A stretch of 57,727 bases of DNA from a virus. The position numbers and the translations under genes are program-made. Under the pieces are notes generated by a model. That model made no database searches. It saw only the letters and a program-made list of their open reading frames with translations, and was not told the origin of the DNA. Each line of letters starts with the position of its first letter. The stretch's first letter is position 1. Shown here in pieces: positions 3,535 to 53,427 of the stretch. Location of the stretch: positions 1 through 57,727 of IMG/VR virus record IMGVR_UViG_3300045120_000343; one strand, written 5' to 3'.

Positions 3535-3746
3535 CAGTCGCCGCGCTCGCGAACCGCCTTGATGAGACGACTACCAAGCTTGGGTTCGTCGTCATTCTTC
3601 ATTTTCGGAGAAGGAATGCGTTCGACCCATCCTTGCTGCACCAATTTGTCGCGCAACAGCCCAGGTGGATAGAAAACCTGCCCGACTCTGCGATTCTCAT
3701 AGGCACGCACAACACGCACGCCGTAGTCTTTGCCTGCTTGCAACAT
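3534..3746 (-). CDS. small conserved-looking phage protein
   Basis: 70 residues from ATG 3746 (MLQAGKDYGVRVVRAYENRR). A GGAG seven bases upstream supports this start; a longer reading from TTG 3800 lacks one. The N-terminal half is beta-prone with VGQVFYPPGLLRDKLVQQGW, which suggests a short winged or SH3-like fold. The C-terminus is basic. It is coupled to the connector gene. No family recognised. Confidence 0.5.
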   Translation of the reverse strand: MLQAGKDYGVRVVRAYENRRVGQVFYPPGLLRDKLVQQGWVERIPSPKMKNDDEPKLGSRLIKAVRERGD

Positions 3747-3762: not shown

Positions 3763-3930
3763 TCAACTAAGGTTAGGTCGCCGGCCGAAGCCGACGCCAA
3801 TCACCCGCGTATTTTTTGGGGCGCCGTTTTCGTCTTCGTCATAATAATAAGTTGTCCACATGACGAGCCCAAACGGCCGCAGCAGTCTATCGACGAAAAG
3901 GGCGATCGGCGCCCAAGTCTTTGGGCTCAT
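3763..3930 (-). CDS. short hypothetical protein
   Basis: A 55-residue gene found by filling a gap between neighbours. ATG 3930 overlaps the stop of the FkbM-like gene as ATGA, and the reading frame ends with TGA at 3763. The product starts MSPKTWAPIALFVDRLLRPF, then has WTTYYYDEDENGAPKNTRV and a basic FGRRP end. The overlap and the absence of any other use for this 180-bp stretch support it as real. Function unknown. Confidence 0.6.
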   Translation of the reverse strand: MSPKTWAPIALFVDRLLRPFGLVMWTTYYYDEDENGAPKNTRVIGVGFGRRPNLS

Positions 3931-4526
3931 GACGCTACACGATCCAGCAGTCTATGCAACGGACGCTTCACAAAGATCATATTGCAAGTATTGCGATGCA
4001 CCCGCGTGTAGAACTTTCCTGATCCGAGACGATTGATTGTCAGTTCGCCGGCTTGTCCTGGGCCGCCTAGCGTTGGCAGCGCGTCATCGTCCGCATTTTG
4101 ATCAAACTCTATGACCACGACGCGCGGACGATACTGCAATAACGAATTCCATAGATAATAATCCTGACCATCTACGTCGATCACAGCAAGGTCTATATCG
4201 AGTGGAGCGCCGCAACGATAAAGAGTGCTCTCAAGCCGATGTGCATCCTCCACGGTTTGGTGCACGCAATGCACACGTTCTCCAAAAGCCTTGCTATTCT
4301 CCAACAAACGAACAAATGATGACTGAGCGGCCTCTATAAGCACGCCACTCCAGCCCTGTTCGAGAAGCCGTCGCGTATTGCTGAAGAAAAGGCCATCAGA
4401 TGCACCGCATTCGAAGCACCACTCGTTCTCCATTCCGATCACGGAGAAGATCGCCTGAAGAACGCCGTCTTCGCCGAATTGACTGTAGGAATTGAAGGCG
4501 AAATCATCGAGCCAGTCGAAACTCAC
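3927..4526 (-). CDS. FkbM-type SAM-dependent methyltransferase
   Basis: 199 residues from GTG 4526. This start overlaps the upstream stop as GTGA and has GGAG seven bases before it; the TTG at 4532 is too close to that site. YSQFGEDG (residues 14-21) and FECGASDG (38-45) are the FkbM-family entry and SAM-binding motifs. VIDVDGQDYYLWNSLLQYRP follows the pattern of the family's later motif. FkbM enzymes usually O-methylate sugars or related small groups. It is translationally coupled to a methyltransferase-glycosyltransferase fusion, which points to methylation of a glycan put on by that enzyme. The substrate (virion protein or host surface) is inference. Confidence 0.8.
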   Translation of the reverse strand: MSFDWLDDFAFNSYSQFGEDGVLQAIFSVIGMENEWCFECGASDGLFFSNTRRLLEQGWSGVLIEAAQSSFVRLLENSKAFGERVHCVHQTVEDAHRLESTLYRCGAPLDIDLAVIDVDGQDYYLWNSLLQYRPRVVVIEFDQNADDDALPTLGGPGQAGELTINRLGSGKFYTRVHRNTCNMIFVKRPLHRLLDRVAS

Positions 4527-5698
4527 TGCCAAGCTCCATCCGGAGCCTTCCCCGTTTCGTTAAACTCCCGCATCGGTTGGAAGACAGCCTGCAAATCAGC
4601 GCCCGGCCACCTCACCATCAATTCGGCATGGCCGATTGTGACTCGATTGGCGAGAAACAGCGTGTTACCGGCGAGATTCCATTTCCTCCAAAAATTGACG
4701 TCCTCGTCAATTTTCTTGTCGTCGGCCCATCCACCATCCTCGTCAGGGACGGAATGGAACCAGGGCTTAGGCAAACTCCGCAATTTGTCCGCGCGGATCA
4801 GCGTGAGCCCGAAATGCGCGGTCGCGATCTTCGTCAGATCGGGACTCATCAGCTCAAGCGGTATCCGCCCGAGCGCCTTGCCGTCCTCGTCCAGAACGGT
4901 GAATAGCGCAGTGGGGAGATGCCTTGATGATTGCAATGCTGCGATGGCGTCCGCCTCCGGGTGCGCCATCATCAGCTCGATCAGGCGGGCGACATTGGTC
5001 TTGGTAAAAATTGTGTCGTAGTCGAGCGTGAGGATCGCGTCCGGCTGGTCCTTCTCGAGGATCATCTCCAGACACTTCGTCAACGCCTGGCCCCAGAAGG
5101 CGCCGCCCTGCCGCCGAAGCCTTATCCCGAGCGGGACGAGCGCGTCGAAGCAGCAGCCGAAGTTGTCCATGAACGCTAGGCGCGGGACGCTCATCGACGC
5201 CGACACTTTCATCTCCGAAACGGCCGGCTTGGTTCCTTCAATGTTGAGCGAGACGTCATAGCTCGCGCAGTCCTCAAGTTCAGACTTCCACGGCCGCAGC
5301 AGCACGAGGCCAGCCACTGCAAGTCGCTGCCGCAAATGTTCGCGATCAAAAAGAGACTTGTGAAAATCGCTCGCGTCGGTCTGCGATCCCATGACGAACC
5401 ACTCGGCGGGCGCATCCATCAGCTTCCCGTCGAGATAACGCTTCGCCAGCTCCTCGAAGTCCGGGACCGCGATCCTCAGAATGCCTCCGGGTTTGAGCAC
5501 CCGGACCCACTCTTTGAGCACGGCCTCGATCTGCCCGTGCGGGAAATGCTCGATGACGTGGCTTGCCCTGACGACGTCGACCGAATTATCGTCATAAGAG
5601 AGCGGAAAGATTTCAGTCCCATGGTCGTGGCCGAGCGGGATATATCCTTCGGGCGATTGCACACCGGCGCCGAGATCAAGTTTTATGCTGTCGGTCAT
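4523..5698 (-). CDS. methyltransferase-glycosyltransferase fusion
   Basis: 391 residues from ATG 5698 (MTDSIKLDLGAG), with AGAGG ahead of the start. Residues 1-145 form a class I methyltransferase domain: LDLGAG (7-12), ASHVIEHFPHGQIEAVLKEW and LKPGGILRIAVPDFEELAK. From about residue 165 a second domain resembles a GT-A glycosyltransferase: an early VPRLAFMDNFG strand, then ILTLDYDTIFTKTNVARLI (222-240) with a DxD-like DYD, then a DEDGGWADDKKIDED acidic region. It lies in the head operon between putative decoration genes and the FkbM methyltransferase. The likely role is to attach and modify sugars on a virion or host component. The N-terminal 49 residues of the longer open frame were left out because the ribosome site favours 5698. 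Confidence 0.7.
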   Translation of the reverse strand: MTDSIKLDLGAGVQSPEGYIPLGHDHGTEIFPLSYDDNSVDVVRASHVIEHFPHGQIEAVLKEWVRVLKPGGILRIAVPDFEELAKRYLDGKLMDAPAEWFVMGSQTDASDFHKSLFDREHLRQRLAVAGLVLLRPWKSELEDCASYDVSLNIEGTKPAVSEMKVSASMSVPRLAFMDNFGCCFDALVPLGIRLRRQGGAFWGQALTKCLEMILEKDQPDAILTLDYDTIFTKTNVARLIELMMAHPEADAIAALQSSRHLPTALFTVLDEDGKALGRIPLELMSPDLTKIATAHFGLTLIRADKLRSLPKPWFHSVPDEDGGWADDKKIDEDVNFWRKWNLAGNTLFLANRVTIGHAELMVRWPGADLQAVFQPMREFNETGKAPDGAWQ

Positions 5699-5792
5699 GT
5701 AGGCCTCTGTCGGGAGGCGCGTGCGGAGACCGACATCTCCGCACGCTGTTCTGCGCAGACATTCCATCCGGTGTCGGCCGGGAGGGGGGACT

Positions 5793-6116
5793 TCAGTTGT
5801 GTTGGGCGGCCTTGGCTTGTTCGACTTTTGCCGTCTTCGCAGCATCCGCGGCTGCCTTCTCGGCAGCGGCTACAGCGGCCTTCTCAGCGGCCTCTGCTTC
5901 TTCCGCGACCTTGGCCTCTTCGGCGAGCCGCACTTCCGCTCGATCCATAGCGGCCGGAAGCTCGACCGCGGCAGCCACCGCAACGTCGGCGAGTTTCGAG
6001 AGATGCTCGCCGGACGCATCGTCGAGATCGCGCATCGCTGCGATCCGCGCCCCCATTATGGCCCCGCCGACATGGATCACTGCATTGCGATCCATCTCCT
6101 TCTTCTTCGTCGTCAT
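5793..6116 (-). CDS. Ala/Lys/Glu-rich helical protein
   Basis: 107 residues from ATG 6116 (MTTKKKEMDRNAVIHVGGAI). The second half is a long run of A/E/K with heptad-like spacing (AEEAKVAEEAEAAEKAAVAA), so a single helix or coiled coil is likely. It lies directly downstream of the putative decoration gene in the capsid block. It might be a linker, scaffold or accessory protein. No family recognised. The opposite strand is also open here because of the GCN-rich codons, but the minus reading has the operon context. Confidence 0.5.
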   Translation of the reverse strand: MTTKKKEMDRNAVIHVGGAIMGARIAAMRDLDDASGEHLSKLADVAVAAAVELPAAMDRAEVRLAEEAKVAEEAEAAEKAAVAAAEKAAADAAKTAKVEQAKAAQHN

Positions 6117-6719: not shown

Positions 6720-8051
6720 TTAGGTGGTCCCGACTAGACCGACGATCGGGCCGGCGTTCGTATTGTCACCGAGATCGTGATTAACGATGTCGATGCGCTC
6801 CGTCCCAAGGATGCCGATCTGATCCAGTTCGAAATACCGTTCCTCTGATCGGCGGATCGTTGCGATGCGCCGTTCGCCCATGGCCGCCGCCATTGCCAGA
6901 TTGCCGAACAGGATCATGACCAGGCCGTTGAGCGTGGTGCTGATAACCGGAAGCTTCTGGCTGATGACGATCGGAAAGCCGAGGTAACGATACTGGATCG
7001 AACCGTCGAGCGTGGAGATGCTATTGCCGCCGGCCGTCGCGATTAGCCGTTCGAAACAAGTTCCGAATGCTAATGCCGAGCAATAGAACTTGGCTTGCGC
7101 AAGGGCATATTGTGGCAGCGTCCCGATCAGCTTGGTCAGGTCCGTGTTGTCGAGCAGCGCGAAGGTCGGATGACCAGAGGCCGCAGCGACCTTGCCGGCG
7201 TTGTGGTTACCGTCGATGAGCAAATTCGTGAGGCCACGAATGCCGCCGAATGTCGATGAGCCGTCACCGTTGAAGCCGCAATCGTCCTCCTTCGAGACGA
7301 AGGCATAGGCTATTTCCGCCGTCATCAGGTCGGCGACGCTCATCAGTGCATCTTCCGACAACTCCGTCGAGATGCGGGTCAATGCAGCGAGTTTCTTGGC
7401 GACCAGATTGACATTGTCCCAGGAGGCTGTCGACTCTGTCACCGCCGTGCCTTCAGAGATGAAGTTTGCCGTTAAGCCGCCGGTGCGCCGTGGCCAGGCC
7501 AAGGTATCACTCGACATCGGGACGATCTGAGCGTTCGCCCGGAACACGCCGAATTGCTCGCGAAGGTCGATGATGGCATTGAGCATCGGCGTCGGCACCA
7601 GAAAGCCGCCGGCCGTATTGATGCCCTCCGATTCTGCCTTCGTCACAACGTCATCATCAATGACACCATTGTCGTGGCACCATTGGCGCGCGTCGCTGTT
7701 GCCAAAGACAAATCCCTTTACCCACTTCCCGCACTTATAGGCGTTCTCCTCTGCGTCCTCGCCTCGGAACGCCTTGAGCTTGGCGTAACGCTTGCGCGGT
7801 TGCGCGAACACGCGATTGCCGCTGCCATTGGTGTCGTGCGGCTTGGATATGCTGAGCTTGTAGGAAGCCACCTTCTCGGTCTGATCTATCTTGGCCTTAA
7901 GATCAGCCGTTTCCTTTTCGAGTTCGGCGAACGCGAGCTCGTGTGTTTTGTCGGGAACGTAATCGTCGGCGCTCATCTTTTGATTGATTGCCACCAACGC
8001 CTCAATCTTCTCCGCGTGCTTGGCGCGAAGCTCGGCAAGTCTCTCCGTCAT
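6720..8051 (-). CDS. major capsid protein, HK97 fold
   Basis: 443 residues from ATG 8051. Residues 1-75 are a charged coiled coil (LAELRAKHAEKIEALVAINQ), the delta domain normally removed by the prohead protease. The shell domain contains TAGGFLVPTPMLNAIIDL, VPMSSDTLAWPRRTGG, then VAKKLAALTRISTELSEDA and an end region with ATIRRSEERYFELDQIGI. These fit the Phage_capsid (HK97 gp5-like) family. It is followed by decoration-like genes and preceded by protease and portal, the canonical HK97 order. Clear start and normal length. Confidence 0.92.
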   Translation of the reverse strand: MTERLAELRAKHAEKIEALVAINQKMSADDYVPDKTHELAFAELEKETADLKAKIDQTEKVASYKLSISKPHDTNGSGNRVFAQPRKRYAKLKAFRGEDAEENAYKCGKWVKGFVFGNSDARQWCHDNGVIDDDVVTKAESEGINTAGGFLVPTPMLNAIIDLREQFGVFRANAQIVPMSSDTLAWPRRTGGLTANFISEGTAVTESTASWDNVNLVAKKLAALTRISTELSEDALMSVADLMTAEIAYAFVSKEDDCGFNGDGSSTFGGIRGLTNLLIDGNHNAGKVAAASGHPTFALLDNTDLTKLIGTLPQYALAQAKFYCSALAFGTCFERLIATAGGNSISTLDGSIQYRYLGFPIVISQKLPVISTTLNGLVMILFGNLAMAAAMGERRIATIRRSEERYFELDQIGILGTERIDIVNHDLGDNTNAGPIVGLVGTT

Positions 8052-8149: not shown

Positions 8150-9094
8150 TCAGCCAGAATGCTTGAGTAGTTCTATCTTTTCTTCGCGCAACAGACGCTC
8201 GCGAGCGCGTTGCTCGTCGAGGCGCTTTTGCTTGGCAGCGCGCTCGATGGATTCAACGCGCGACTGATCCACGATCACCTTGCCGGATTTGGCGAGCTCG
8301 CGCTCGGCAAAATCGAATAGGATTTTTTTATCCAGGCCCGATAAATAATTCAGCGTTTCGCTGCTGGCGATCGGAGGTTCGCTTTCATTTTCCTCGTCGG
8401 CCGTCTCATGCGCGAGAATGCGGTAGGCTTTTTCAAATTCGGCCCGCGGCATCAGCACGCCTTCCGGCGAGCGCTGCCAGTTGTCGAGTACGTCCTCGAG
8501 CCATTCCTTCGCGAGACCACGATCGCCGTTAAATGCTTTGGCGAGAGCGTCCTGGTTCGCCGGAATTGCACACAGACTACATTCGAGGATCTTTGCGGCG
8601 TTGAATTGCAGACCGCCTGTCCACGACCCATCCTCATCCAACATCATCTCGATCTGATCGAAATCAGGAATAAAACCGATCGACGCGCCCCTGACGTATC
8701 CGTTCTCAGCGTACCACGCCGCGGTGTCTACCTCGGGATTTGGTCCACCAGCCTTCAGAAAGGAGAGATCGCCTTCCATTCGCGGCGGCCTGGTGCGCAA
8801 CATCTTCTCGACGTTCTTCCAGGTGCCGATCGGCCAGGTGTCCGAGCGATGGCTCATCAGCGCGATCGGATTTTGTTCAAACTCGGTAATATCGAGGCCG
8901 GCGGTGACAACCACATCGCCCATTCGGTCGACCGATTGCGAGGACATCACAAATCGAGCCGAACGAGATCCCGAATCCCAGGTCGACGGTCCCTTCGCGG
9001 CCTTCATCATCAACTCAGATCCATCGGCGCCCTGCCGCATTTGGTCCTTGCGCAACTCATGGGCCTCATCGGCGGAAATGCGCTTCGTTCGCAT
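8150..9094 (-). CDS. HK97-family prohead protease
   Basis: 314 residues from ATG 9094 (MRTKRISADEAHELRKD). A GAGGA about nine bases upstream, overlapping the portal stop, supports this start over the ATG at 9118. The family's catalytic features are visible: a His in PIALMSHRSDTW (H82) and a Ser in VRGASIGFIP (S138). It cleaves the delta domain of the capsid protein during maturation. The C-terminal third is highly charged (ERAAKQKRLDEQRARERLL), a possible scaffold function, since HK97-type phages often lack a separate scaffold. Length is on the long side because of this tail. Confidence 0.88.
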   Translation of the reverse strand: MRTKRISADEAHELRKDQMRQGADGSELMMKAAKGPSTWDSGSRSARFVMSSQSVDRMGDVVVTAGLDITEFEQNPIALMSHRSDTWPIGTWKNVEKMLRTRPPRMEGDLSFLKAGGPNPEVDTAAWYAENGYVRGASIGFIPDFDQIEMMLDEDGSWTGGLQFNAAKILECSLCAIPANQDALAKAFNGDRGLAKEWLEDVLDNWQRSPEGVLMPRAEFEKAYRILAHETADEENESEPPIASSETLNYLSGLDKKILFDFAERELAKSGKVIVDQSRVESIERAAKQKRLDEQRARERLLREEKIELLKHSG

Positions 9095-9104
9095 GGGCAA
9101 TTCC

Positions 9105-10499
9105 TCACTCTTCGGCATGACCCGAGCCATTGCCGTTAGCGTGGCGCTTTTCAAAAGGCGATGGCAGCACCACGTCGTCCGATTCCTCGCGCGCCACTAA
9201 TTCCATTGCCAACTTGAGCAACGCCTTCGCGCTCGCCGGCGGAAGATTGTCGGGATTGGGATTCGGATTTGAATTCGGCTGCGGTGGAGCTGGGAACGTC
9301 CCGGCGGGCGCCATATTCAGAGGCTGTAAATAAACGTCGCCATCTGGATAATGATTTCGATTTTCCAGCTCGCGAATTTCATTCGCATTCAAGATGCCCC
9401 AGTTACGCGCGACGGCGTAGGCATCATATCGGCTCTTCGTGTCTCCTTTGAGCAGAGCATCAGGCAAAAACTCGAAAAAATATTGCTGTTGTTCTTGCTC
9501 AGTCAGAAGATCGCGGCCGAGTGTCTGCTCCCAGCGCCGAAACTCAGTCATGAGGCAGTCGGTGACGTACTCAAGCGACTGCATTTCGATGTTGCTGTAG
9601 GTCGAGCGCTCCAGGTCACCGACCTTATGCGCTGGAACGCGATAGATACGCCATATCTCCTGGTTCTGCATCTTGCGGGTATTGATGTATTCGGCATCGA
9701 CGTTAGTTAGGCCGGTCGCGACCCAATCCATGCCGCCGTCAAAGATCGCGATCCGGTGCGAGTTCTCGACGCCGCGGTACTTACGCTCCCAATCCTCGCG
9801 AAGCTTTTTCGCCGTAGCCTCGTCGACTACACCCGGCAGTTTCACCGCACCGCGCGGTTGCGCGGAATTGCCGAAGAACGCGGCGCCATATTTCTCCGCC
9901 GCGACAGCGAGCCCGATCGTCTCGCGATGATGCGCAATCGGCGATAGACCCACGATGCCGTCGAGCGAGATGCCGCGCAGATGCATAACGGCATCGGCCG
10001 GAAGCGTCTCGACCGCGCCATAGGGACGGGTAATCCGATAAAATACATCCTGCCAGTCCGGCGTAACGAAGACTTGCACCCATTTCCATGGGATTGGCCA
10101 TAGCGCAGTGACGCGCCCGCGCAAGTCAAAATCTTTCAATGCGAGCGCATTGCCGCGCAAATCTAACTCCGCCTGCATCATCTGGCGGAAATCGAATGCC
10201 GTCATCCGCGGATTGGGCGCGAGATTGATCAAGTTGTAGAGTGCGTGATCGGTCGCCCGCTCCTTGCCTCCATCGGGCAAGCGCCGATAAAGCAAACATG
10301 GAATTTTGGCGACGTCTTCCGATCGGACGCGTATGCATGCCCACACGGCCGCGAGCCGCATGGCCGATTCCGGCGTGACCGCGATGCCGGACAACGTCGG
10401 CTCGCCGCCGTGAATCCAATCGACAAACCAGCTTGACGGATTGGTCGACGTGCTCGTGTCCTTGCGCCGCCACGGCAAAATGCGGTCAAGGAAGCCCAT
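9105..10499 (-). CDS. portal protein, HK97 family
   Basis: 464 residues from ATG 10499 (MGFLDRILPWRRKD). MRLAAVWACIRVRSEDVAKI and LYNLINLAPNPRMTAFDFRQ are typical of the Phage_portal (HK97 gp3) family, as are the later VGDLERSTYSNIEMQSLEYV and LTEQEQQQYFFEFLPDALLK. It forms the dodecameric DNA gate at one capsid vertex. The C-terminus is Pro/Asn-rich (PPQPNSNPNPNPDNLPP), a flexible tail. Protease follows immediately. Confidence 0.92.
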   Translation of the reverse strand: MGFLDRILPWRRKDTSTSTNPSSWFVDWIHGGEPTLSGIAVTPESAMRLAAVWACIRVRSEDVAKIPCLLYRRLPDGGKERATDHALYNLINLAPNPRMTAFDFRQMMQAELDLRGNALALKDFDLRGRVTALWPIPWKWVQVFVTPDWQDVFYRITRPYGAVETLPADAVMHLRGISLDGIVGLSPIAHHRETIGLAVAAEKYGAAFFGNSAQPRGAVKLPGVVDEATAKKLREDWERKYRGVENSHRIAIFDGGMDWVATGLTNVDAEYINTRKMQNQEIWRIYRVPAHKVGDLERSTYSNIEMQSLEYVTDCLMTEFRRWEQTLGRDLLTEQEQQQYFFEFLPDALLKGDTKSRYDAYAVARNWGILNANEIRELENRNHYPDGDVYLQPLNMAPAGTFPAPPQPNSNPNPNPDNLPPASAKALLKLAMELVAREESDDVVLPSPFEKRHANGNGSGHAEE

Positions 10500-10526: not shown

Positions 10527-10856
10527 TTACGTGGTCGGGACGTTGGCGGCGGCCGTCGCCAACCGTGAGCTGCGCGCGGTCAGCGCGCCGGCTAGGTCAG
10601 TAATGCGCTTTGCCGTGGCAGGATCGGTCTGACCGGTCTTGAGGCCAGCGACGAGAGCCGTCACCGCCACGAGAATCTGTTCTACCGAATCGTCGGTGTC
10701 GGCATTTGCCTTCGCTGCAGCTTCGGCAGCGTCGAGTTCTGCTTCATATGCCACTTTGATATCCCTTTCTGTTTGCAACAGTTCCCGCATGATCCAATGC
10801 TGGTTTTGCTCGATGCGGGCGAGTTGAGCAGCCAGGTCGTTCCAGGTGAAATACAT
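10527..10856 (-). CDS. small phage protein before portal
   Basis: 109 residues from ATG 10856 (MYFTWNDLAAQLARIEQ). The N-terminal half is helical, with IEQNQHWIMRELLQTERDIK. The C-terminal half has VTALVAGLKTGQTDPATAKR, a short segment seen in many small phage proteins of unknown role. It is the first gene of the leftward head operon. Two TGCC-N5-GGCA palindromes lie just upstream (10873-10907). A start inside the palindromes (10886) is less plausible. Confidence 0.55.
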   Translation of the reverse strand: MYFTWNDLAAQLARIEQNQHWIMRELLQTERDIKVAYEAELDAAEAAAKANADTDDSVEQILVAVTALVAGLKTGQTDPATAKRITDLAGALTARSSRLATAAANVPTT

Positions 10857-10872
10857 GGGTTTTCCGTACCTA

Positions 10873-10907
10873 TGCCATTTCGGCATGCCACCTATGCCAT
10901 TTTGGCA
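10873..10907. promoter_or_regulatory. operator-like palindromes A and B
   Basis: Two 13-bp palindromes, TGCCATTTCGGCA (10873-10885) and TGCCATTTTGGCA (10895-10907), 22 bp apart start to start. Read on the minus strand each is followed by GGCATAGG, which could supply a -10 element for the leftward portal operon. With three more copies on the plus-facing side they look like binding sites of one dimeric repressor. The factor is not known; the helix-turn-helix protein at 11937-12122 is a candidate. Confidence 0.6.
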
Positions 10908-10908
10908 A

Positions 10909-10937
10909 TGGACTCGTCTGTGCCGTTATGGCATATT
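10909..10937 (+). promoter_or_regulatory. rightward promoter with operator C
   Basis: TGGACT (10909-10914) and CATATT (10932-10937) are 17 bp apart and fit a weak sigma-70 promoter. Palindrome TGCCGTTATGGCA (10921-10933) fills the spacer and overlaps the -10, a classic repression layout. A GACTC (GANTC) site at 10911-10915 overlaps the -35. It faces the gene at 10987. Promoter strength is a reading of sequence only. Confidence 0.5.
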
Positions 10938-10986
10938 CCAAATCGTCGGGAGGGCGATGGTGCCCAACCAAAACCGGGAGGTTCCA

Positions 10987-11160
10987 ATGAACGATGCAGC
11001 CCTCACCCAGTTCCGCGCCCTCGCCGAGGCAATGCAGACCGAGCCAACAACTTGGGAATGGACCGGCCCGCACATGTCGCAGCGGATGTTCGGGATTACC
11101 GAAACTCGCGCCAAGACATACGCAGAGCGCCACGGGGGCGAGGCCCGCCGAATGGATTGA
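10987..11160 (+). CDS. first gene of plus-strand regulatory module
   Basis: 57 residues from ATG 10987 (MNDAALTQFRALAEAMQTEP), with GGGAGG six bases upstream. The region MSQRMFGITETRAKTYAERH could be a short helix-turn-helix or helical pair; the end is basic. It is the only reading with a ribosome site in this interval. It stands on the plus strand between two large minus-strand structural operons. Function unknown. Confidence 0.6.
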   Translation: MNDAALTQFRALAEAMQTEPTTWEWTGPHMSQRMFGITETRAKTYAERHGGEARRMD

Positions 11161-11343
11161 CCCGCTGGTCGCACCAGCGGCCGGACTAGGCAGCGGAGCT
11201 AGCCTAGCGCGCGAGGGGGCCAAGCGAAACGCCCCCACCTACTACCCTGATATGCCGAAATGGCATATCAGCTATACCGAATTAGCAATTGTCCTTAATG
11301 TGCCCTTATGGCATAGTCTGAACATCAGAACGGGAGACGGACA
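11161..11343. promoter_or_regulatory. intergenic control region with operators D and E
   Basis: No gene is seen in these 183 bases. Two hairpins come first: CGCTGGT-CGC-ACCAGCG at 11163-11179, right behind the preceding stop, and GGGGGC...GCCCCC at 11215-11236; neither has a T-run. Then follows a 21-bp perfect palindrome GATATGCC-GAAAT-GGCATATC (11249-11269, site D). Site E is TGCCCTTATGGCA (11301-11313), placed between TTGTCC (11289-11294) and CATAGT (11312-11317), spacing 17. Site E thus has the same layout as site C and probably controls the genes from 11344 on. Confidence 0.55.
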
Positions 11344-11520
11344 ATGAAGTACGAAACAGTTTGCATCCGCCGCCAAGGTTATAGCCTGCTTCACACCGAG
11401 GGCGCCGACTTCGCAGCCAAGGTGACTTATCACGGCTGGGAAGCTCGTCGCGGCCAAGTGTATACCTACGAAGTGGTTAGCGAGTGGCTGATCCCAATTC
11501 CTGGATATTGGGGGGAGTAA
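11344..11520 (+). CDS. short hypothetical protein of plus-strand module
   Basis: 58 residues from ATG 11344, with GGGAGAC ahead of it. It starts MKYETVCIRRQGYSLLHTEG, has a central KVTYHGWEARRGQVYTYEVV and ends IPGYWGE. The alternation of short strands suggests a compact beta protein. It is the first gene after operators D and E. The downstream gene begins 5 bases after its stop. No family recognised. Confidence 0.6.
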   Translation: MKYETVCIRRQGYSLLHTEGADFAAKVTYHGWEARRGQVYTYEVVSEWLIPIPGYWGE

Positions 11521-11525
11521 CGGAC

Positions 11526-11753
11526 ATGACCCAGCAATTCCAAGTCGGCAAGACCTACGCAACCCGCTCGATCTGCGACCACGACTGCATCTTCTCCTTC
11601 GTCGTTCTCGGCCGCACCGCGAAGACGGTCACCGTCAACGTCCACGGCAAGACGGTTCGGCGCGGGCTTTCGATTTACGACGGCGTCGAGCAGTTCAGCC
11701 CCTTCGGCAACTACTCAATGGCCACCATCATCGGCGCGGACGACCTCACGTAG
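11526..11753 (+). CDS. small beta-rich protein of plus-strand module
   Basis: 75 residues from ATG 11526 (MTQQFQVGKTYATRSICDHD). The stretch IFSFVVLGRTAKTVTVNVHG and the later LSIYDGVEQFSPFGNYSMAT suggest a small beta barrel, similar in style to short phage proteins that bind a host factor. GGGGGAG precedes the start. It overlaps nothing and is followed after a few bases by AGGAG and the next gene. Function unknown. Confidence 0.6.
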   Translation: MTQQFQVGKTYATRSICDHDCIFSFVVLGRTAKTVTVNVHGKTVRRGLSIYDGVEQFSPFGNYSMATIIGADDLT

Positions 11754-11763
11754 GAGAATGAAA

Positions 11764-11940
11764 ATGAAACTCTCAGATACCGAATGGAATGCGATCGAAC
11801 GCGCTCTGCGGATAGCGGCCGACCAATACGACAGCGATGCACATGACGCATCGTGCGCCCCTAACCACGAGCGAATTGAACGATGCTTCAAAGATCAGGC
11901 GATGCTTGCCAGGACCATAGCCGACAAGATCATCGTATGA
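11764..11940 (+). CDS. small helical protein of plus-strand module
   Basis: 58 residues from ATG 11764 (MKLSDTEWNAIERALRIAAD). AGGAG lies seven bases before this ATG; the ATG at 11758 is too close to it. It is acidic and helical, with two Cys (DASCAPNHERIERCFKDQ). It ends in an ATGA overlap with the helix-turn-helix gene. No family recognised. Confidence 0.6.
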   Translation: MKLSDTEWNAIERALRIAADQYDSDAHDASCAPNHERIERCFKDQAMLARTIADKIIV

Positions 11941-12122
11941 CCACCGCCCAATACCTCGCCGCACTTCGCAAGCTCGGCCTTCCCCCTTACGGGAAGGCGA
12001 CTTGCGAAGCGCTAGGCTTGCGACCTCGGCAGATCGCGCGGATGGCCAGCGGCGAAAGCGACGTGACGGAGACCGTCGCGCTGCTGCTGCGGATGTATCT
12101 GCGGCATGGCCTCAGCGGGTAG
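11937..12122 (+). CDS. helix-turn-helix protein of plus-strand module
   Basis: 61 residues from ATG 11937, ATGA-coupled to the gene before. The sequence LRKLGLPPYGKATCEALGLR then RQIARMASGESDVTETVALL has the shape of an XRE-like helix-turn-helix: recognition helix around RPRQIARMASGE and a capping helix after it. Similar short proteins occur in rhizobial phages and genomes. As the last gene of a module controlled by TGCC-N5-GGCA sites it is a candidate for the factor that binds them. That link is inference. Confidence 0.6.
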   Translation: MTTAQYLAALRKLGLPPYGKATCEALGLRPRQIARMASGESDVTETVALLLRMYLRHGLSG

Positions 12123-12127
12123 CCGCA

Positions 12128-13795
12128 TTACGCGAAGCCGCCGCGCTCGAGGATGGCGTGGCGCAACTGCGCGGCGATGTCCTCTTTGGCCGAGTCCCGC
12201 GACTTGAGCCCGAGCGCCATCGCCAGCGCGACCGCACCGTCAACCCGGAACCGCACCTTGGCCTTGTCGATCTTCCGGTTGCCGGCCGGATCAGGCTTCG
12301 CGACGATCGCATTACCGACGTTCCAGGTCAGCACCGGGTTGCCAGGGTGCACGAGCTTGCGTTCCATCACCGACTGTTCAAACGCGTCGACGGCCGGCGA
12401 CATGTCGCGGAAACCTTGCCCCCACGGGACGAGCCGCAGCCCGTCGCCCTTGTCGCCGTCCTTGAATGCGGCAAACCCGATCCGATCAAATTCCTTGACG
12501 AGATCCTCGATGCGCCATCGGTCGTAGGCCATCCCGAGCACGGTGAACTTCCCGCAGAGCTCGGCGATGCGCGTTGCAACGACCGCCTTGTCGATCGTCT
12601 TACCGGGCGATGCGAGGAGATGCCCAGCCTTGACCCATTCTTCGTAACGGCGACTGCCGGCGCCAAAGTCCCGGTGACTGTGTTCGGCCAGGAACTCCTC
12701 GGGCTTCCAGAAGAATGCCCGGACCTTCGACTGGCCATCGGCGCTGATCATAATCAGCGCCGTGAGATCGTTCACCGATGAAAGATCGAGGCCGAGGTAA
12801 ACGCGCTCCCGATCCGTGAAGTCAGCAACGCCGCCGCACGCCATCCATTCAGCGCGCGAGATCAGCGACGTCGTCGGCGAAACGCGCTGGTTCAGGTAGA
12901 GGTTCCGGAACTTCGCTTCCTCGGCCGGCATGCGCTGTGCCTTCCGAGCCACCGCCTTGAAATCCTCGAGTGACCGAAAGTCCCCAAGCGCCGGATTGGC
13001 GTCCTTCCAGACGTGTGGATCGAAGATGTTCTCGCAATCCTCGTCGACTGCGTAGAGATGCGTTACGATGGTCGGATCTTGCTTGCTCAAGCCGTCGTCG
13101 ATCAGCTTCGACAGAATATGCTCTGGGTCGTTCGACTGCGTCGAGATGACCACGAACAGCGGCTCGGCACGGCCGCCCATTGACGTGTCCAGCACGTCGT
13201 ACAAGTCCCGGCTTTTCGCTTGCGCCAACTCGTCGAAAATAATTAGCGATGGCGAATAACCGTGCTTTGTTCCGGCTTCAGCCGAGATGGCGCGATAGAC
13301 AGATCCCGTGCGCAGCCCAAGCAACGTCTTCGTAGACGGAATTACTTTGACCAGCTCCTTTAGTTCGGGATCCGCCTCAATAATTTGCCGAGCAAATTTG
13401 AAGACGATCGAGGCCTGATCTCGGTCGTTCGCCGCGGAATAGATTTCGCCGTTAGGGACTGCTTCAGGACCGATTAAGTGGACGAGGACCAGGCCGGCAA
13501 TCAACGCAGTTTTCCCGTTTTTCCTCGCGACCGAAAGAATTGCCCGCCGCACCGAACGCTTGCCATTCGTTCGCGGCTGATAAATCTCCCGGATGAAACG
13601 CTTTTGAAACGGCCTCAGCTCGAACTTCGCGCCACTTCCTTCGCCGCTCGGGACAATCAAGCATTGGAGGAACGCGATAACCTTGTCCGCGCGCTTCTTA
13701 TCCGATGAGACCGGCGAACTTGCTTTTTGCTTCCGTGACGGGGCCGACCGCAAGACGGGCGCGGGCTGCTGGTGTAAGTCCGAATTCGGATGCAT
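12128..13795 (-). CDS. terL: terminase large subunit
   Basis: 555 residues from ATG 13795. The ATPase has Walker A VARKNGKT (residues 89-96) and Walker B LIIFDEL (184-190), and the ELRPFQKRFIREIYQP entry motif of the Terminase_1 family. The nuclease part has a YLGLDLSS strand near residue 340 and an acidic DGAVALAMALG motif near the end. It packages DNA through the portal. The start overlaps the small-subunit gene by 98 bases, which is longer than the 1-4 base overlaps of neighbouring genes, so a later start is possible, although no ATG follows before the conserved region. Confidence 0.93.
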   Translation of the reverse strand: MHPNSDLHQQPAPVLRSAPSRKQKASSPVSSDKKRADKVIAFLQCLIVPSGEGSGAKFELRPFQKRFIREIYQPRTNGKRSVRRAILSVARKNGKTALIAGLVLVHLIGPEAVPNGEIYSAANDRDQASIVFKFARQIIEADPELKELVKVIPSTKTLLGLRTGSVYRAISAEAGTKHGYSPSLIIFDELAQAKSRDLYDVLDTSMGGRAEPLFVVISTQSNDPEHILSKLIDDGLSKQDPTIVTHLYAVDEDCENIFDPHVWKDANPALGDFRSLEDFKAVARKAQRMPAEEAKFRNLYLNQRVSPTTSLISRAEWMACGGVADFTDRERVYLGLDLSSVNDLTALIMISADGQSKVRAFFWKPEEFLAEHSHRDFGAGSRRYEEWVKAGHLLASPGKTIDKAVVATRIAELCGKFTVLGMAYDRWRIEDLVKEFDRIGFAAFKDGDKGDGLRLVPWGQGFRDMSPAVDAFEQSVMERKLVHPGNPVLTWNVGNAIVAKPDPAGNRKIDKAKVRFRVDGAVALAMALGLKSRDSAKEDIAAQLRHAILERGGFA

Positions 13796-14177
13796 ACCTG
13801 ACCATGTCGCTTGCGGCTTTGTTGGAAGTGCCGACCAATGGGTTCTGAATCGCGTTTCCGTTCGTCGTGCGGATCATCAGGCCGCCGGTGAGCAGATCCT
13901 TCGCGGCCATCTTCGCGAGCGCGCGTTCCGCATAAACCCATCGGCCATATGCCTGGCAATAGGCCGCGAGCGATGCGACGTCGATTTGCGTGAGCAATCC
14001 GAGCCGGTAAAGCTGAACGGACACCCGCGTCCACTCGACGCGCGCCTCGTCGGTGAGAAAATCCAGCGGCTCGGGCAGCGGCGCCGGATCAGGGCGAGGC
14101 TCATTCTGAGGAATCGGCCGCTTTCCTGGGTTGCCCTCGATCAGCTTCAGGTGCGCGGGCTTCATCTTGCGGCCCAT
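13698..14177 (-). CDS. terS: terminase small subunit, P27 family
   Basis: 159 residues from ATG 14177 (MGRKMKPAHLKLIEGNPGKR). The N-terminal basic motif and IEGNPGKRP are the signature of P27-type small subunits. The middle helices (LTDEARVEWTRVSVQLYRLG, IDVASLAAYCQAYGRW) and a central NAIQNPLVGTSNKAASDMVR also match. It recognises phage DNA for packaging. TAATG overlap with the methyltransferase gene upstream; it reads into terL. Confidence 0.88.
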   Translation of the reverse strand: MGRKMKPAHLKLIEGNPGKRPIPQNEPRPDPAPLPEPLDFLTDEARVEWTRVSVQLYRLGLLTQIDVASLAAYCQAYGRWVYAERALAKMAAKDLLTGGLMIRTTNGNAIQNPLVGTSNKAASDMVRYASEFGLTPAARARLAVGPVTEAKSKFAGLIG

Positions 14178-15511
14178 TAGGCGGCCTCTTTATGCCTTTC
14201 GGCTTTGACTTGTGCGAACGATTTGCCGTCCAGCGTTGCTTCCTGTCCTGTGAAATCCTGCCAGCGGTTGATGCAGACGTCGATGTAAGCCGGATCAATC
14301 TCGATGGCGTGACACAAACGGCCGATCATTTCAGCGGCGATGATCGTCGTGCCCGAGCCAACGAACGGATCGTAGACGGCCTGCCCCGGCGAGGAGTTGT
14401 TCTCGATCGGCCGCTTCATGCACTCGACGGGCTTTTGGGTGCTATGGCCGGTCTCAGACTTCCGTGGTTTGTCGATTTGCCAGAGCGTAGTCTGTGTGCG
14501 ATCGCCTCTCCAGTGCCCATTAGCTTGCTGGCGCACCGCATACCAACAGCTTTCGTGCTGCGGGTGATAGTGTCCTCGGCTCATGACAAGCTGGCTTTTC
14601 GCCCACACTATTTCGGCGCGGATCGTAAACCCTGCCTCAATGAGGCTTTCAAACACGGTGCCTGCATGGAGCATCCCATGCCACACGTAGGCAACGTCAC
14701 CTGGAAATAACTTCCATGCCTCGCGCCAGTCCGCGCGATCATCGTTCGTGACCTTGCCCCTCGCTGAATTTACGCTAGTCCTACGGGCAGCGGCAGGATC
14801 GTAATTCACCCCATAGGGCGGGTCCGTAACCATGAGGTGTGGCTTCACAGCGCCGAGCAGCTTTTGCGCGTCCTCGGCGTTTGTCGCATCGCCGCACAAA
14901 AGCCGATGCCGCCCCAACGCCCACAAATCGCCGTGCATCGCGACAGGATTAACGGGCAGCTCAGGAGCCTCATCCGGATCCGTCAAGCCAGCGCCGCCCT
15001 GTGCCCGAATGGCGGCCATTTCGTCGCCGAACCCCAAAAGGTCCAGGTTGAAACCCATTCCATCCAAATCCGCGGCCTCCAGCCGCAGCAGATCGATGTC
15101 CCAACCGCCATTTAGCGCGAGCTTGTTATCGGCGATCGTGTACGCCTTGCGCTGAGCCTCGGTCCAGCCCCTCGCTACCATCACGGGAACATCGGCAATC
15201 CCGAGCTGCCGCGCCGCCAGTACCCGCCCGTGCCCGGCAATTATGCCGCCCGCCTCGTCCACCAGGACCGGCGTCGTCCAGCCCCACTCCCGCACCGAAG
15301 CAGCGATCTGCGCTACCTGCGCATCGCTATGCGTTCGAGCGTTCCGCGCATATGGAACGAGCCTCTCGAGCGGCCAGCGTTCAACTTTGTCGGCAGGCCA
15401 ATCGGTCAAAACGACCCCCTTATGCGATTTTGCGGAATCTAACGCGTCAGCTTGCGACGGTCCCGCGCCCCAAAGATTGCGATGATTTAGATCCCCCTCC
15501 CCGTGGGCCAT
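14177..15511 (-). CDS. ParB-domain DNA methyltransferase
   Basis: 444 residues from ATG 15511. Residues 42-120 are a ParB/sulfiredoxin-like domain: LVPYARNARTHSDAQVAQIA and the GGIIAGHGRVLAARQLG motif. Residues 190-420 are a beta-class DNA methyltransferase with DPPY (230-233, motif IV) before DPFVGSGTT (381-389, motif I), so the product is probably N6-methyladenine (N4-methylcytosine is possible). Such ParB-methylases are common next to phage terminases and are thought to shield phage DNA from restriction. Recognition sequence unknown. The HNH gene upstream overlaps its start by 25 bases. Confidence 0.88.
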   Translation of the reverse strand: MAHGEGDLNHRNLWGAGPSQADALDSAKSHKGVVLTDWPADKVERWPLERLVPYARNARTHSDAQVAQIAASVREWGWTTPVLVDEAGGIIAGHGRVLAARQLGIADVPVMVARGWTEAQRKAYTIADNKLALNGGWDIDLLRLEAADLDGMGFNLDLLGFGDEMAAIRAQGGAGLTDPDEAPELPVNPVAMHGDLWALGRHRLLCGDATNAEDAQKLLGAVKPHLMVTDPPYGVNYDPAAARRTSVNSARGKVTNDDRADWREAWKLFPGDVAYVWHGMLHAGTVFESLIEAGFTIRAEIVWAKSQLVMSRGHYHPQHESCWYAVRQQANGHWRGDRTQTTLWQIDKPRKSETGHSTQKPVECMKRPIENNSSPGQAVYDPFVGSGTTIIAAEMIGRLCHAIEIDPAYIDVCINRWQDFTGQEATLDGKSFAQVKAERHKEAA

Positions 15512-15852
15512 CCTTCACCATCGATGGACTGAGCCGCAGGATATCGCCGACTTAGATCGACCGCTGACTTGCTGTTGAGCCAGAGCTCAGACTTGCCGAG
15601 CTTGCCCTGTTCGTACAGCCACTCGAGCCTGCGCTTGATGACGTCGTGATGCCAACTGCATGCGGGCTGTAACTCTCCTCCGTGGAAGCGCGAAGCATCG
15701 CCGCGATGTGGAACGACATGATCAGCCACCGTTGCTGGTGTGGCTAAGCCAACAGCAGCGCATCCGAGACATCGAGGATGCTGAGCCAAGAAGCGGGACC
15801 GGAACGCTTCCCATCGGCGATCATAGCCGCGTTGCCGAGCACCAATCCGCAT
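15487..15852 (-). CDS. HNH endonuclease next to terminase
   Basis: 121 residues from ATG 15852 (MRIGARQRGYDRRWEAFRSR). The fold is visible as CLGC (28-31), then TVADHVVPHRGD with the catalytic DH (44-45), then LQPACSWHHDVIKRR with Cys65 and His68/69, including the RGYDRRWEAFR entry motif. HNH proteins of this size beside terminase take part in genome cutting during packaging in HK97-like phages. Direct family call is strong; the packaging role is by analogy. Confidence 0.87.
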   Translation of the reverse strand: MRIGARQRGYDRRWEAFRSRFLAQHPRCLGCAAVGLATPATVADHVVPHRGDASRFHGGELQPACSWHHDVIKRRLEWLYEQGKLGKSELWLNSKSAVDLSRRYPAAQSIDGEGWPTGRGI

Positions 15853-23503: not shown

Positions 23504-23728
23504 TCATTCGGCCGCCTCGCGATGGGACGGCTTCATTTTCCAAAGATGCACCGACGCAGAAAGATTTTTGCGCTCAAGCGCCTGCGTCAGGGAAAGGAAG
23601 GTATTGGCGGGGAACTGATCGCGGCTGATCCAGTTTTGCGCCGCCGTGTAGCGGCTCCCCGTGATCTCAGCGACGGCGCTGATCCCGCCGAGCGCCTCGA
23701 ACACTTCGCGTGCGGTCCTTAGCTCCAT
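23504..23728 (-). CDS. Cro-like helix-turn-helix regulator
   Basis: 74 residues from ATG 23728. MELRTAREVFEALGGISAVA then EITGSRYTAAQNWISRDQFP is a compact helix-turn-helix of the Cro/YdaS type, with a last helix NTFLSLTQALERKNL. It is divergent from the CI-like gene and heads the leftward early operon. The promoter -10 lies about 7 bases before the ATG, so its mRNA may be leaderless. A TTG start at 23764 would sit in the -35 box and was rejected. Confidence 0.7.
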   Translation of the reverse strand: MELRTAREVFEALGGISAVAEITGSRYTAAQNWISRDQFPANTFLSLTQALERKNLSASVHLWKMKPSHREAAE

Positions 23729-23734
23729 GCTCAG

Positions 23735-23764
23735 TATATAATCCACGAATTTTGGAATTGTCAA
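23735..23764 (-). promoter_or_regulatory. leftward early promoter with operator O1
   Basis: On the minus strand TTGACA (23764-23759) and TATATA (23740-23735) are 18 bp apart, close to consensus. Operator-like site ATCCACGAATTTTGGAA (23741-23757, TCCA-N7-TGGA) fills the spacer exactly. Transcription would start near 23728, the A of the Cro-like ATG. The 22-bp palindrome TTTGGAA-N8-TTCCAAA (23751-23772) overlaps and may give a second binding mode. Confidence 0.6.
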
Positions 23765-23787
23765 CTTCCAAATCCATGCAATCGGGA

Positions 23788-23804
23788 ACCCACAAAATTT
23801 GGAC
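23788..23804. promoter_or_regulatory. operator-like site O2
   Basis: ACCCACAAAATTTGGAC fits the TCCA-N7-TGGA pattern of O1, O3 and O4 with one half-site base changed. It lies just ahead of the CI-like ATG at 23818 and inside any transcript from upstream. Likely bound by the CI-like or Cro-like protein. Confidence 0.5.
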
Positions 23805-23817
23805 TACCCTTTCTTCG

Positions 23818-24114
23818 ATGGAGAAAAGCCGCATCGTCGACTATCGGGCTTTGGGGAAGCGCCTGCGCCAGTTCAGGGAGGGCATCGGCCTCAGCATGGG
23901 CGAAATGGCCGTTGAACTCGAGGTCGGATATACGCAGTATCAAAACTGGGAAAGCGGAAAACCGATCCCGTTCGATCAGGTGATTAAAATCTGGCGGCGT
24001 TTTGGAGTGGATCCCAGGTGGCTCACGGACGGGTTCGGCGTACCGCCAGACGCAGTTCGAAAGCCAACCAGCGAGCCGTATAAGGCCGGCAAACGGCACC
24101 GTTTTCGGAGCTAG
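23818..24114 (+). CDS. CI-like repressor (XRE helix-turn-helix)
   Basis: 98 residues from ATG 23818 (MEKSRIVDYRALGKRLRQFR). EGIGLSMGEMAVELEVGYTQ then YQNWESGKPIPFDQVIKIWR is a standard XRE helix-turn-helix (recognition helix around GYTQYQNWESG). The C-terminus WLTDGFGVPPDAVRKPTSEP is short, so there is no RecA-cleavable peptidase domain. Induction would need another signal than LexA-type self-cleavage. An ATG at 23776 in frame would add a 14-residue head. It is divergent from the Cro-like gene and convergent with the gene at 24111. Confidence 0.75.
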   Translation: MEKSRIVDYRALGKRLRQFREGIGLSMGEMAVELEVGYTQYQNWESGKPIPFDQVIKIWRRFGVDPRWLTDGFGVPPDAVRKPTSEPYKAGKRHRFRS

Positions 24115-51558: not shown

Positions 51559-53427
51559 TCAGAAAGCGTTCATGATGTAGTCGATGTTGATTTGCATCAT
51601 GCCAGCAGTTAGAGCCTGGACGCTGACGGTCAGCGTAATCTGCTGCTCGGTGCCATTGTAGAAGAAATCGCCCGGTACTATGCCATTTATAATCAAATCG
51701 GGCGAGGTGATTGGTCCAGCGGTGATAACTGTTGCTGCTAGGAACGCAGCCGGAGTGCCCGTCACCCCTAACGCGATTTTGGCGGTATTGCTACTACTAG
51801 CAAAGGTTACCGATGGGGACGTGAAGACCCGGGTTACGATAGCACCCTTCGGAAGAGTGACGCCAAGATTCTTTGTTCCTACAGACCCGCCGTCAGTCGG
51901 AACATTGTAAGATGTGCAGATTCGACCGCCATCAAATTTAACTCTCAGACCTCGAATGCTCCCCGCGCCGAGGGTCAATTTAGTGAAATCGACGCCTTGT
52001 ATGTTGCTGAGAGATAAGTCGACGCAGTTTTTGGTAAGCGGTGCTTTGGACGACATATTACGCGCGGCGAAATTTGCAATCGTAATCCTGGTGACACCAT
52101 CTATATCCCACGGAATTGGAGATGGTGCTGAACCGCCGTCAAAATCCACTCCATCGATCACCCAATCTGCAGCGGTCGATACGGCCCCGTCGAAAGCATT
52201 AACGCAATTTTTGATTGTGCCGTTCGTAAATTTGACAGCGGACCCGAGCGGAATCTGGAAGGCCGAGAACGCCGTATCGATGAAATAGTTATTGATCGAT
52301 ATGCCGCTAATCGTTCCCTGAAAGAACATTGCCTCTTCGGCGTTCGTCGTGCCCTTGAATTTGTAGCCAGAGAGCGAGCAATGCGTACAGTCTCGCCAGA
52401 TGATACCGACATTGGCGCCTTGTGAGTTTTCGCTGTAAATATCGGACACCTGCAAATCAGTTTGCGTAAAAAATCCGAAATCACAGTTGAAGTTGCCATT
52501 ATGCGCGGTGCACTTGGAGACTTTATTGCCTTTTCCGGTGTCGATGGAATAGCCGAAATTGCTTGTGCACCCGCCGCAATCCACGTCGCATTCGGTCAGC
52601 GTGTTGTAGCCATCAGATGACGACGGCGATACCAGGGATATGCCTGCCGTGCCGCCGCCCGCCAGAGTTTGCGCCGTGACCGAGAGGGCAACCCTAATGC
52701 CGCGAATGACCGAGCGGCTTGCTTTGACCGCAAGGCCATAGGCATTACCCTGCCCCGAGAATGGCACGCTGGTGTTGGAAGCGTTGTCTGAATAAAAGTT
52801 TCCCACCGTGCAACGGTTCAGTATCGCGACGAATGCCGTTTGCGTGTGATGAAAGACCCGCAAGTCGCGAAATACGCAGTCGTTGAAAGTCGTGGGAGCG
52901 GCTCCATTGAGAGTCCCGATCGCCATCCCATCCACGTTCGAGAAATAGAGGTCGTCAAATACCGAGTCCGCGACGATCGAGGTGCTGTCTGCGCCGACGA
53001 AAATGCTATGTATAAGGTTATGCGGTGCACCGGCTTGATTGGCAAAATTGCCGTCCAGCAAGAGGCGGCTAAATGTTACACGCGATGTGGTCGCCCCCGT
53101 GGGCCACACAAACATGCTGCCACTAGCGTTAGCTTTCAATCTGAACGTAGTGTTCCCGTCCCCCAGCACCCGTAAATTGGAGAGCAGCGGCACCGAGTCG
53201 ACCGCATAGATACCGCCGCCCGTAACCCATAATGGGATTTTTTCCGAGGCGGCATAGGCGAACGCAGCAGTGACGGCGGCGGTATCGTTCGCCGCGCCAT
53301 CTCCCACGACGCCGAACTGTTGCAGGTTGAGAGCGTTGAGAGGCCGCTTGCGCCACCGGCTGCCGTCAAATTTCCAGGTGCGATAGAGATCACCTGACGA
53401 TGGCGCTATCGGGAAATCCAAAGCCAT
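51559..53427 (-). CDS. tailspike, pectate-lyase-like beta helix
   Basis: 622 residues from ATG 53427. Residues 1-35 are an attachment head; then LQQFGVVGDGAANDTAAVTA (about 35-54) is the classic start of a Pectate_lyase_3 beta helix (D-G-x-x-x-D-x-A). Many short Asn/Gly strands follow (NVDGMAIGTLNGAAPTTFND). A compact C-terminal domain (KGAIVTRVFTSPSVTFASSS) may trimerise it. It likely binds or degrades a polysaccharide receptor. It is the second spike of this type. Confidence 0.8.
   Translation of the reverse strand: MALDFPIAPSSGDLYRTWKFDGSRWRKRPLNALNLQQFGVVGDGAANDTAAVTAAFAYAASEKIPLWVTGGGIYAVDSVPLLSNLRVLGDGNTTFRLKANASGSMFVWPTGATTSRVTFSRLLLDGNFANQAGAPHNLIHSIFVGADSTSIVADSVFDDLYFSNVDGMAIGTLNGAAPTTFNDCVFRDLRVFHHTQTAFVAILNRCTVGNFYSDNASNTSVPFSGQGNAYGLAVKASRSVIRGIRVALSVTAQTLAGGGTAGISLVSPSSSDGYNTLTECDVDCGGCTSNFGYSIDTGKGNKVSKCTAHNGNFNCDFGFFTQTDLQVSDIYSENSQGANVGIIWRDCTHCSLSGYKFKGTTNAEEAMFFQGTISGISINNYFIDTAFSAFQIPLGSAVKFTNGTIKNCVNAFDGAVSTAADWVIDGVDFDGGSAPSPIPWDIDGVTRITIANFAARNMSSKAPLTKNCVDLSLSNIQGVDFTKLTLGAGSIRGLRVKFDGGRICTSYNVPTDGGSVGTKNLGVTLPKGAIVTRVFTSPSVTFASSSNTAKIALGVTGTPAAFLAATVITAGPITSPDLIINGIVPGDFFYNGTEQQITLTVSVQALTAGMMQINIDYIMNAF

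Follow-up and report, generated by a model that had tools for sequence, protein, structure and literature searches.

Aca repressors have so far been a main handle for finding anti-CRISPR genes. Most Aca proteins are 60-65 residues long, and members of every bacterial Aca family are reported to repress their own operons via inverted repeats located within the core promoter (PMC9410906). A second study describes dimeric binding by Aca10 and quotes Aca1 DNA that includes TAGGCACAATGTGCCTA (PMC9410881). AcaFinder applies as operon criteria a common strand, gaps of <250 bp and proteins of <200 residues, with a homology cut-off of E < 1e-10 for a named Aca family (PMC9765179). In this study, a module of small genes was analyzed in a 57.7-kb phage record from IMG/VR (IMGVR_UViG_3300045120_000343; the whole stretch of 57,727 nucleotides is referred to as the window). 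The module is very probably a self-regulated accessory (moron) operon that is governed through 17-bp operators by an Aca-like autorepressor, the product of its last gene, g5.

The head genes of this soil phage are transcribed leftward, with the capsid at 6720-8051, the protease at 8150-9154 and the portal at 9105-10499 (minus strand). The large terminase (12128-13795) also lies on the minus strand, and the small terminase (13698-14177) is leftward as well. A sequence-only reading had placed a rightward set of five small genes, ending in a helix-turn-helix (HTH) protein, between portal and large terminase, and the coordinates confirm both the position and the gene set. The cassette is inserted antiparallel to the head genes and consists of g1 (10987..11160, 57 residues), g2 (11344..11520, 58 residues), g3 (11526..11753, 75 residues, a predicted small beta-barrel protein), g4 (11764..11940, 58 residues) and g5 (11937..12122, 61 residues, HTH protein), all on the plus strand. 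With proteins of 57-75 residues, gaps of 183, 5 and 10 bp and one overlap, between g4 and g5, the five genes fall within the AcaFinder limits, and g5 has the length of a typical short Aca HTH protein. Direct DNA similarity did not establish kinship of the region with annotated phages, as just short terminase fragments matched. Elsewhere in the window, a ParB-like domain fused to a DNA methyltransferase (14177-15511) adjoins an HNH endonuclease gene (15487-15852), methyltransferase- and glycosyltransferase-looking genes, judged by their translations alone, stand among the late genes at 3927-5845, and the minus strand at 33307-33391 matches Rfam RF00519 (suhB/mmgR small RNA; it scores 45.2 bits, where the gathering score is 41).

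Five copies of TGCC-N5-GGCA had been described in the two control regions of the module. All five were recovered, starting at 10873, 10895, 10921, 11253 and 11301, and each is followed by CATA(G/T) in the direction described. The window contains seven matches to this pattern where 1.2 are expected, a count that no shuffle out of 100 attained; the remaining two matches, at 5853 and 29266, are without the TA ends. The complete motif of the module is the 17-bp dyad TATGCC-N5-GGCATA, which is essentially restricted to the module within the window. When up to two mismatches were allowed, the whole window yielded the five module sites and one further site at 53240, and among 200 simulated 500-bp control regions at the same tolerance, 195 had no site, five had one and none had two or more. 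Because the window is a phage record, this search covered phage sequence, without host sequence. The putative operators A (10871..10887, TATGCCATTTCGGCATG) and B (10893..10909, TATGCCATTTTGGCAAT), both on the minus strand, face a leftward gene between module and portal (10527..10856, minus strand) that encodes 109 residues and has no family match. On the other side, putative operator C (10919..10935, plus strand, TGTGCCGTTATGGCATA) faces g1, and the putative operators D (11251..11267, strand not assigned, TATGCCGAAATGGCATA) and E (11299..11315, plus strand, TGTGCCCTTATGGCATA) face g2-g5. Site D is the sole perfect TA...TA dyad of the TATGCC form in the window.

A putative g1 promoter, TGGACT-N17-CATATT (10909..10937, plus strand), has site C in its spacer; its consensus is weak and it is proposed by analogy with homologous loci. 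Similarly, a putative g2-g5 promoter of weak consensus, TTGTCC-N17-CATAGT (11289..11317, plus strand), has site E in its spacer, and its layout matches that of four related loci (L009, L028, L037 and L038), in which TTGAC- and TAT-type boxes flank a dyad. These best sigma-70 boxes of the two control regions were not called by a consensus scan. With regard to the Aca criterion of an inverted repeat in the core promoter, the dyads C, D and E are present, but the promoter boxes of the window are weak matches. A convincing -35 box was not found for the leftward side, where sites A and B are located. The g1-g2 gap was also searched for an RNA element, and its folding barely surpasses that of shuffled sequences (z -1.4). 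As a separate observation, a long hairpin at 11963-12010 falls within the beginning of the g5 reading frame (101-nt segment, -44.9 kcal/mol, z -4.0, with no shuffle equally good); it could reflect RNA-level control or a coding coincidence.

The g5 product is a single-domain HTH protein. Its AlphaFold2 model predicts four helices with a mean pLDDT of 93.9, and the best structural matches of this model are to Aca2 (Z 9.4 and 9.3), followed by NE0471, SO3848, HigA2 (8.4), MqsA (8.3), Aca10 (8.1) and Aca1 (8.0), where values near 8 may reflect a common arrangement. The predicted fold is common to HigA2, MqsA and other XRE proteins. In a comparison of the g5-family profile with PDB sequences, MbcA was matched at 4.6e-5, Aca2 at 1.7e-4, Aca1 at 2.2e-3 and Aca10 at 9e-3; the similarity to Aca2, Aca1 and Aca10, the three named families that the sequence comparison covered, is distant. 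In NCBIfam, g5 is weakly similar to HigA, and its relatives to HigA and MqsA. Matches of g5 to TAL-effectors were dismissed as an artefact of many weak repeats, no stretch being significant alone. A short stretch of g1 resembles an HTH turn, but g1 has no real similarity to the g5-family profile.

Relatives of the module were reached via g3, then via locus L009 and then by searches with the HTH protein and profiles. With the window HTH protein alone, a search of viral contigs found no relatives, and a scan of genome contigs with the window subfamily gave no match. In L009, the gene order is a g3 homologue, a g5-like HTH protein and a small gene; upstream are TAGGCCATTAGGGCCTA and TAGGCCATAAGGGCCTA, the latter flanked by TTGACA and TATATA. 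The non-redundant viral set comprises 30 loci, counting the window. In 14 of them a perfect TA...TA 17-bp dyad lies within 1500 bp upstream of the g5-type gene, whereas 100 simulated sets averaged 0.12 and never exceeded 1. Downstream, one of the 30 loci has a perfect dyad. Near-perfect dyads occur in L016, L030/L065, L031/L063 and L045, and the g5 relatives terminate small-gene operons. A perfect dyad is absent in about half of the viral relatives, including the window-like L049 and L050, and no dyad of this form was found with the chromosomal relatives L072-L089 or with the plasmid relatives from Burkholderia, Caulobacter and Skermanella.

Protein subfamily and operator are both shared with locus L051, found by a search with the window HTH protein and that of L047. 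Its HTH protein is 56% identical to g5, and upstream of it are TATGCCGTTATGGCATA and the very 17-mer of window site C; the TATGCC motif is present nowhere else in this 44-kb record. The small-gene operon of L051 is on the plus strand amid minus-strand genes, and a gene for a small terminase stands to its left. Dyads on the divergent side are present in L051 and also in L009, L015 and L018. Since the same operator type accompanies g5 relatives in unrelated phages, g5 is, judging from these sequence comparisons, likely the cognate repressor of the window sites. Further dyads were noted. L030 has, in addition to an imperfect dyad upstream, TAGGACAGATTGTCCTA at 3702, directly downstream of its HTH gene. 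On the Gordonia plasmid pGOR1 (L124), TTGACG-TGTCCTATTTTAGGACA-TATGGT is located 1.2 kb upstream of a more distant HTH relative, and the gene cluster there includes a gene annotated Cas5/CasD. Other dyads, in regions that resemble promoters, precede distant g3 homologues, namely ACATATTGCGCAATATGT in L011 (351-368) and the repeated TACTAACGTTAGTA in L012 (2870-2960).

The reverse approach was a DNA-only scan of viral contigs for TATGCC dyads paired at a distance of 10-40 bases. Seven contigs were returned, of which one was that of L051. In another, L107, a g5 relative (E 2.1e-19) is encoded approximately 1 kb downstream of the dyads. No convincing g5 relative was found in the other five, among them L110, where TATGCCATATCGGCATA dyads (7473-7524) are near a CI-like S24 repressor (8248-8955); here the TATGCC dyad may serve another type of repressor. 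Because L110 and four other contigs are without a convincing g5 relative, the TATGCC motif alone is not diagnostic of the g5 family. The arrangement in L110, together with the XRE-type, lysogeny-type regulator encoded in the window itself (23710-24114), would fit a different reading, in which the palindromes are stoperator-like operators of that lysogeny repressor or a partner and, in the lysogen, keep the moron silent or set its timing. This reading is improbable. The intergenic region of the XRE gene is without TGCC-N5-GGCA and has other motifs instead, which makes the regulator at approximately 23.8 kb an unlikely reader of the sites; moreover, the sites are confined to the module and the operator type tracks g5 relatives across unrelated phages. 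The sequence-only proposal of a second control circuit, with an operator family other than that of the lysogeny switch, is thereby supported, with g5 as the preferred regulator.

The dyad sequence varies together with the recognition helix of the g5-type protein. Across 21 loci, a recognition helix with [RK][RK]W goes with a half-site starting with TAG (15/15), and a helix without it goes with TAT or TAC (6/6); restricted to perfect dyads, these groups comprise 11 and 4 loci, respectively. The rule was noticed post hoc, and several of the dyads behind it are imperfect and were read by eye; given the common descent of the loci, its p value overstates independence. A relative found afterwards in Bradyrhizobium phage ppBeUSDA76-2 has the recognition helix ADPRTARRWA (ARRWA), and 344 bp upstream of it is TAGGGCCACTTGCCCTA, that is TAGGGC-N5-GCCCTA, as the rule expects. 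As this relative is in a named record, the idea is directly testable. Between the window and L009, the g3 proteins are 79% identical, whereas the regulators are 34% identical and the operators differ.

The co-variation bears on two further explanations of the sites. Phage promoters can carry host operators, and a host transcription factor could read the palindromes, so that the module would respond to host physiology. We regard this as very unlikely, as the dyad varies in step with the module's own g5-type protein, and a 3.2-Mb Xanthobacteraceae genome has just three scattered matches to TATGCC-N5-GGCA. Alternatively, the palindromes could act as transcript hairpins or recombination sites instead of protein operators; inverted repeats can form RNA structures, and a strong hairpin does exist within g5. 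However, the short arms around a 5-base center, the lack of a T tract, the promoter placement and the variation of the arms with the HTH protein make such a role extremely improbable, and for these reasons the sites are read as operators, most plausibly for g5.

The cargo genes g1-g4 did not match any characterized family in Pfam, NCBIfam or PADLOC, nor did these databases match a known anti-CRISPR in the cassette or a toxin family among the four genes, and no defense or anti-defense function was obtained from PADLOC and NCBIfam. Distant homologues of g3 are present in Butyrivibrio phages and cyanophage PSS2, and its predicted fold has convincing matches only to uncharacterized phage proteins; none of the homologues of g3 is a characterized protein. 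The cargo varies from locus to locus and the HTH protein stays, although some cargo recurs with different regulators, as seen for g3 (window and L009) and for a 62-71-residue protein (L015, L018 and L037). These results weigh on the proposal that g5 is an antitoxin-type HTH protein of the HigA/MqsA kind, that one of g1-g4 is its toxin and that the operators autoregulate the pair. Its basis is the fold in common with HigA2 and MqsA and the weak NCBIfam similarity noted above; yet with no toxin family among g1-g4 in the three databases, and with cargo changing while the HTH protein persists, such a pair is improbable. The pattern of cargo fits exchangeable counter-defense genes, and a counter-defense role of g1-g4 is plausible but unproven. 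In L038, an anti-restriction family protein (1634-2491; PHROG 7245, E 1e-83) is encoded directly upstream of the g5-type operon, which carries a TAGGGC dyad.

In the proposed mechanism, a dimer of g5 would bind the TATGCC-N5-GGCATA dyads in the promoter regions of g1 (site C) and of g2-g5 (sites D and E). Bound g5 would exclude RNA polymerase and limit the expression of g1-g5, its own gene included. Sites A and B would let g5 act also on the divergent leftward gene beside the portal, and such an action on the leftward promoter is possible. The analogy with Aca systems suggests that expression would surge on entry and then be shut off. A broader and more tentative suggestion, which we hold to be possible though doubtful, is that g5 belongs to a previously unnamed Aca-like repressor family that recurs in soil and alphaproteobacterial phages, whose operators follow a simple code between recognition-helix motif and third base of the 17-bp dyad and which controls exchangeable counter-defense cassettes as well as a divergent head- or terminase-side promoter, coupling shut-off to late expression. 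If an Aca-like family of this kind controls counter-defense cassettes, its operators could serve to mine anti-defense genes. In soil alphaproteobacterial phages, an additional Aca-like family whose operator code can be read would give a DNA-level handle on homologue-less cassettes, and the loci offer a compact natural set of repressor-operator pairs with differing specificity.

Compared with known systems, the module differs from a CI/Cro-type lysogeny circuit in that its operators are absent from the control region of the XRE repressor at 23.8 kb. The VC1465 family Xer recombination activation factor (NF040522) is weakly similar to the HTH segment of some g5 relatives, with a best match of 1.4e-5 that is far below the curated cut-off and no match to g5 itself, and the relatives differ from it in length and context. 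With HigA/MqsA/MbcA-type antitoxins g5 shares the predicted HTH fold (Z approximately 8 for HigA2 and MqsA, and the MbcA profile match), but it has no recognizable toxin partner and is accompanied by variable cargo. Like moron cassettes of temperate phages, the module interrupts the head genes, runs on the opposite strand and has putative promoters of its own; unlike typical ones, it has its own proposed cognate repressor and five putative operators, and a terminator-like hairpin was sought and not found at its 3' end, after g5. The closest likeness is to the acr-aca operons of Aca2, Aca1 and Aca10, in which a small HTH gene of the same fold is the last of a short-gene phage operon and inverted repeats are located at the operon promoters, here putative; the Aca1 DNA layout, TAGGCA-N5-TGCCTA, has the same 17-bp format as the window dyads. 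In contrast to these operons, no known acr gene was matched in the cassette by Pfam, NCBIfam or PADLOC, the g5 family is only distantly similar in sequence to those Acas whose structures are solved (E 1e-4 to 1e-2), and the window sites have TATGCC specificity and are present also on the divergent late-gene side. Thus, the known class is that of Aca-like autoregulated phage accessory operons, to which this locus adds a new member and a testable specificity code.
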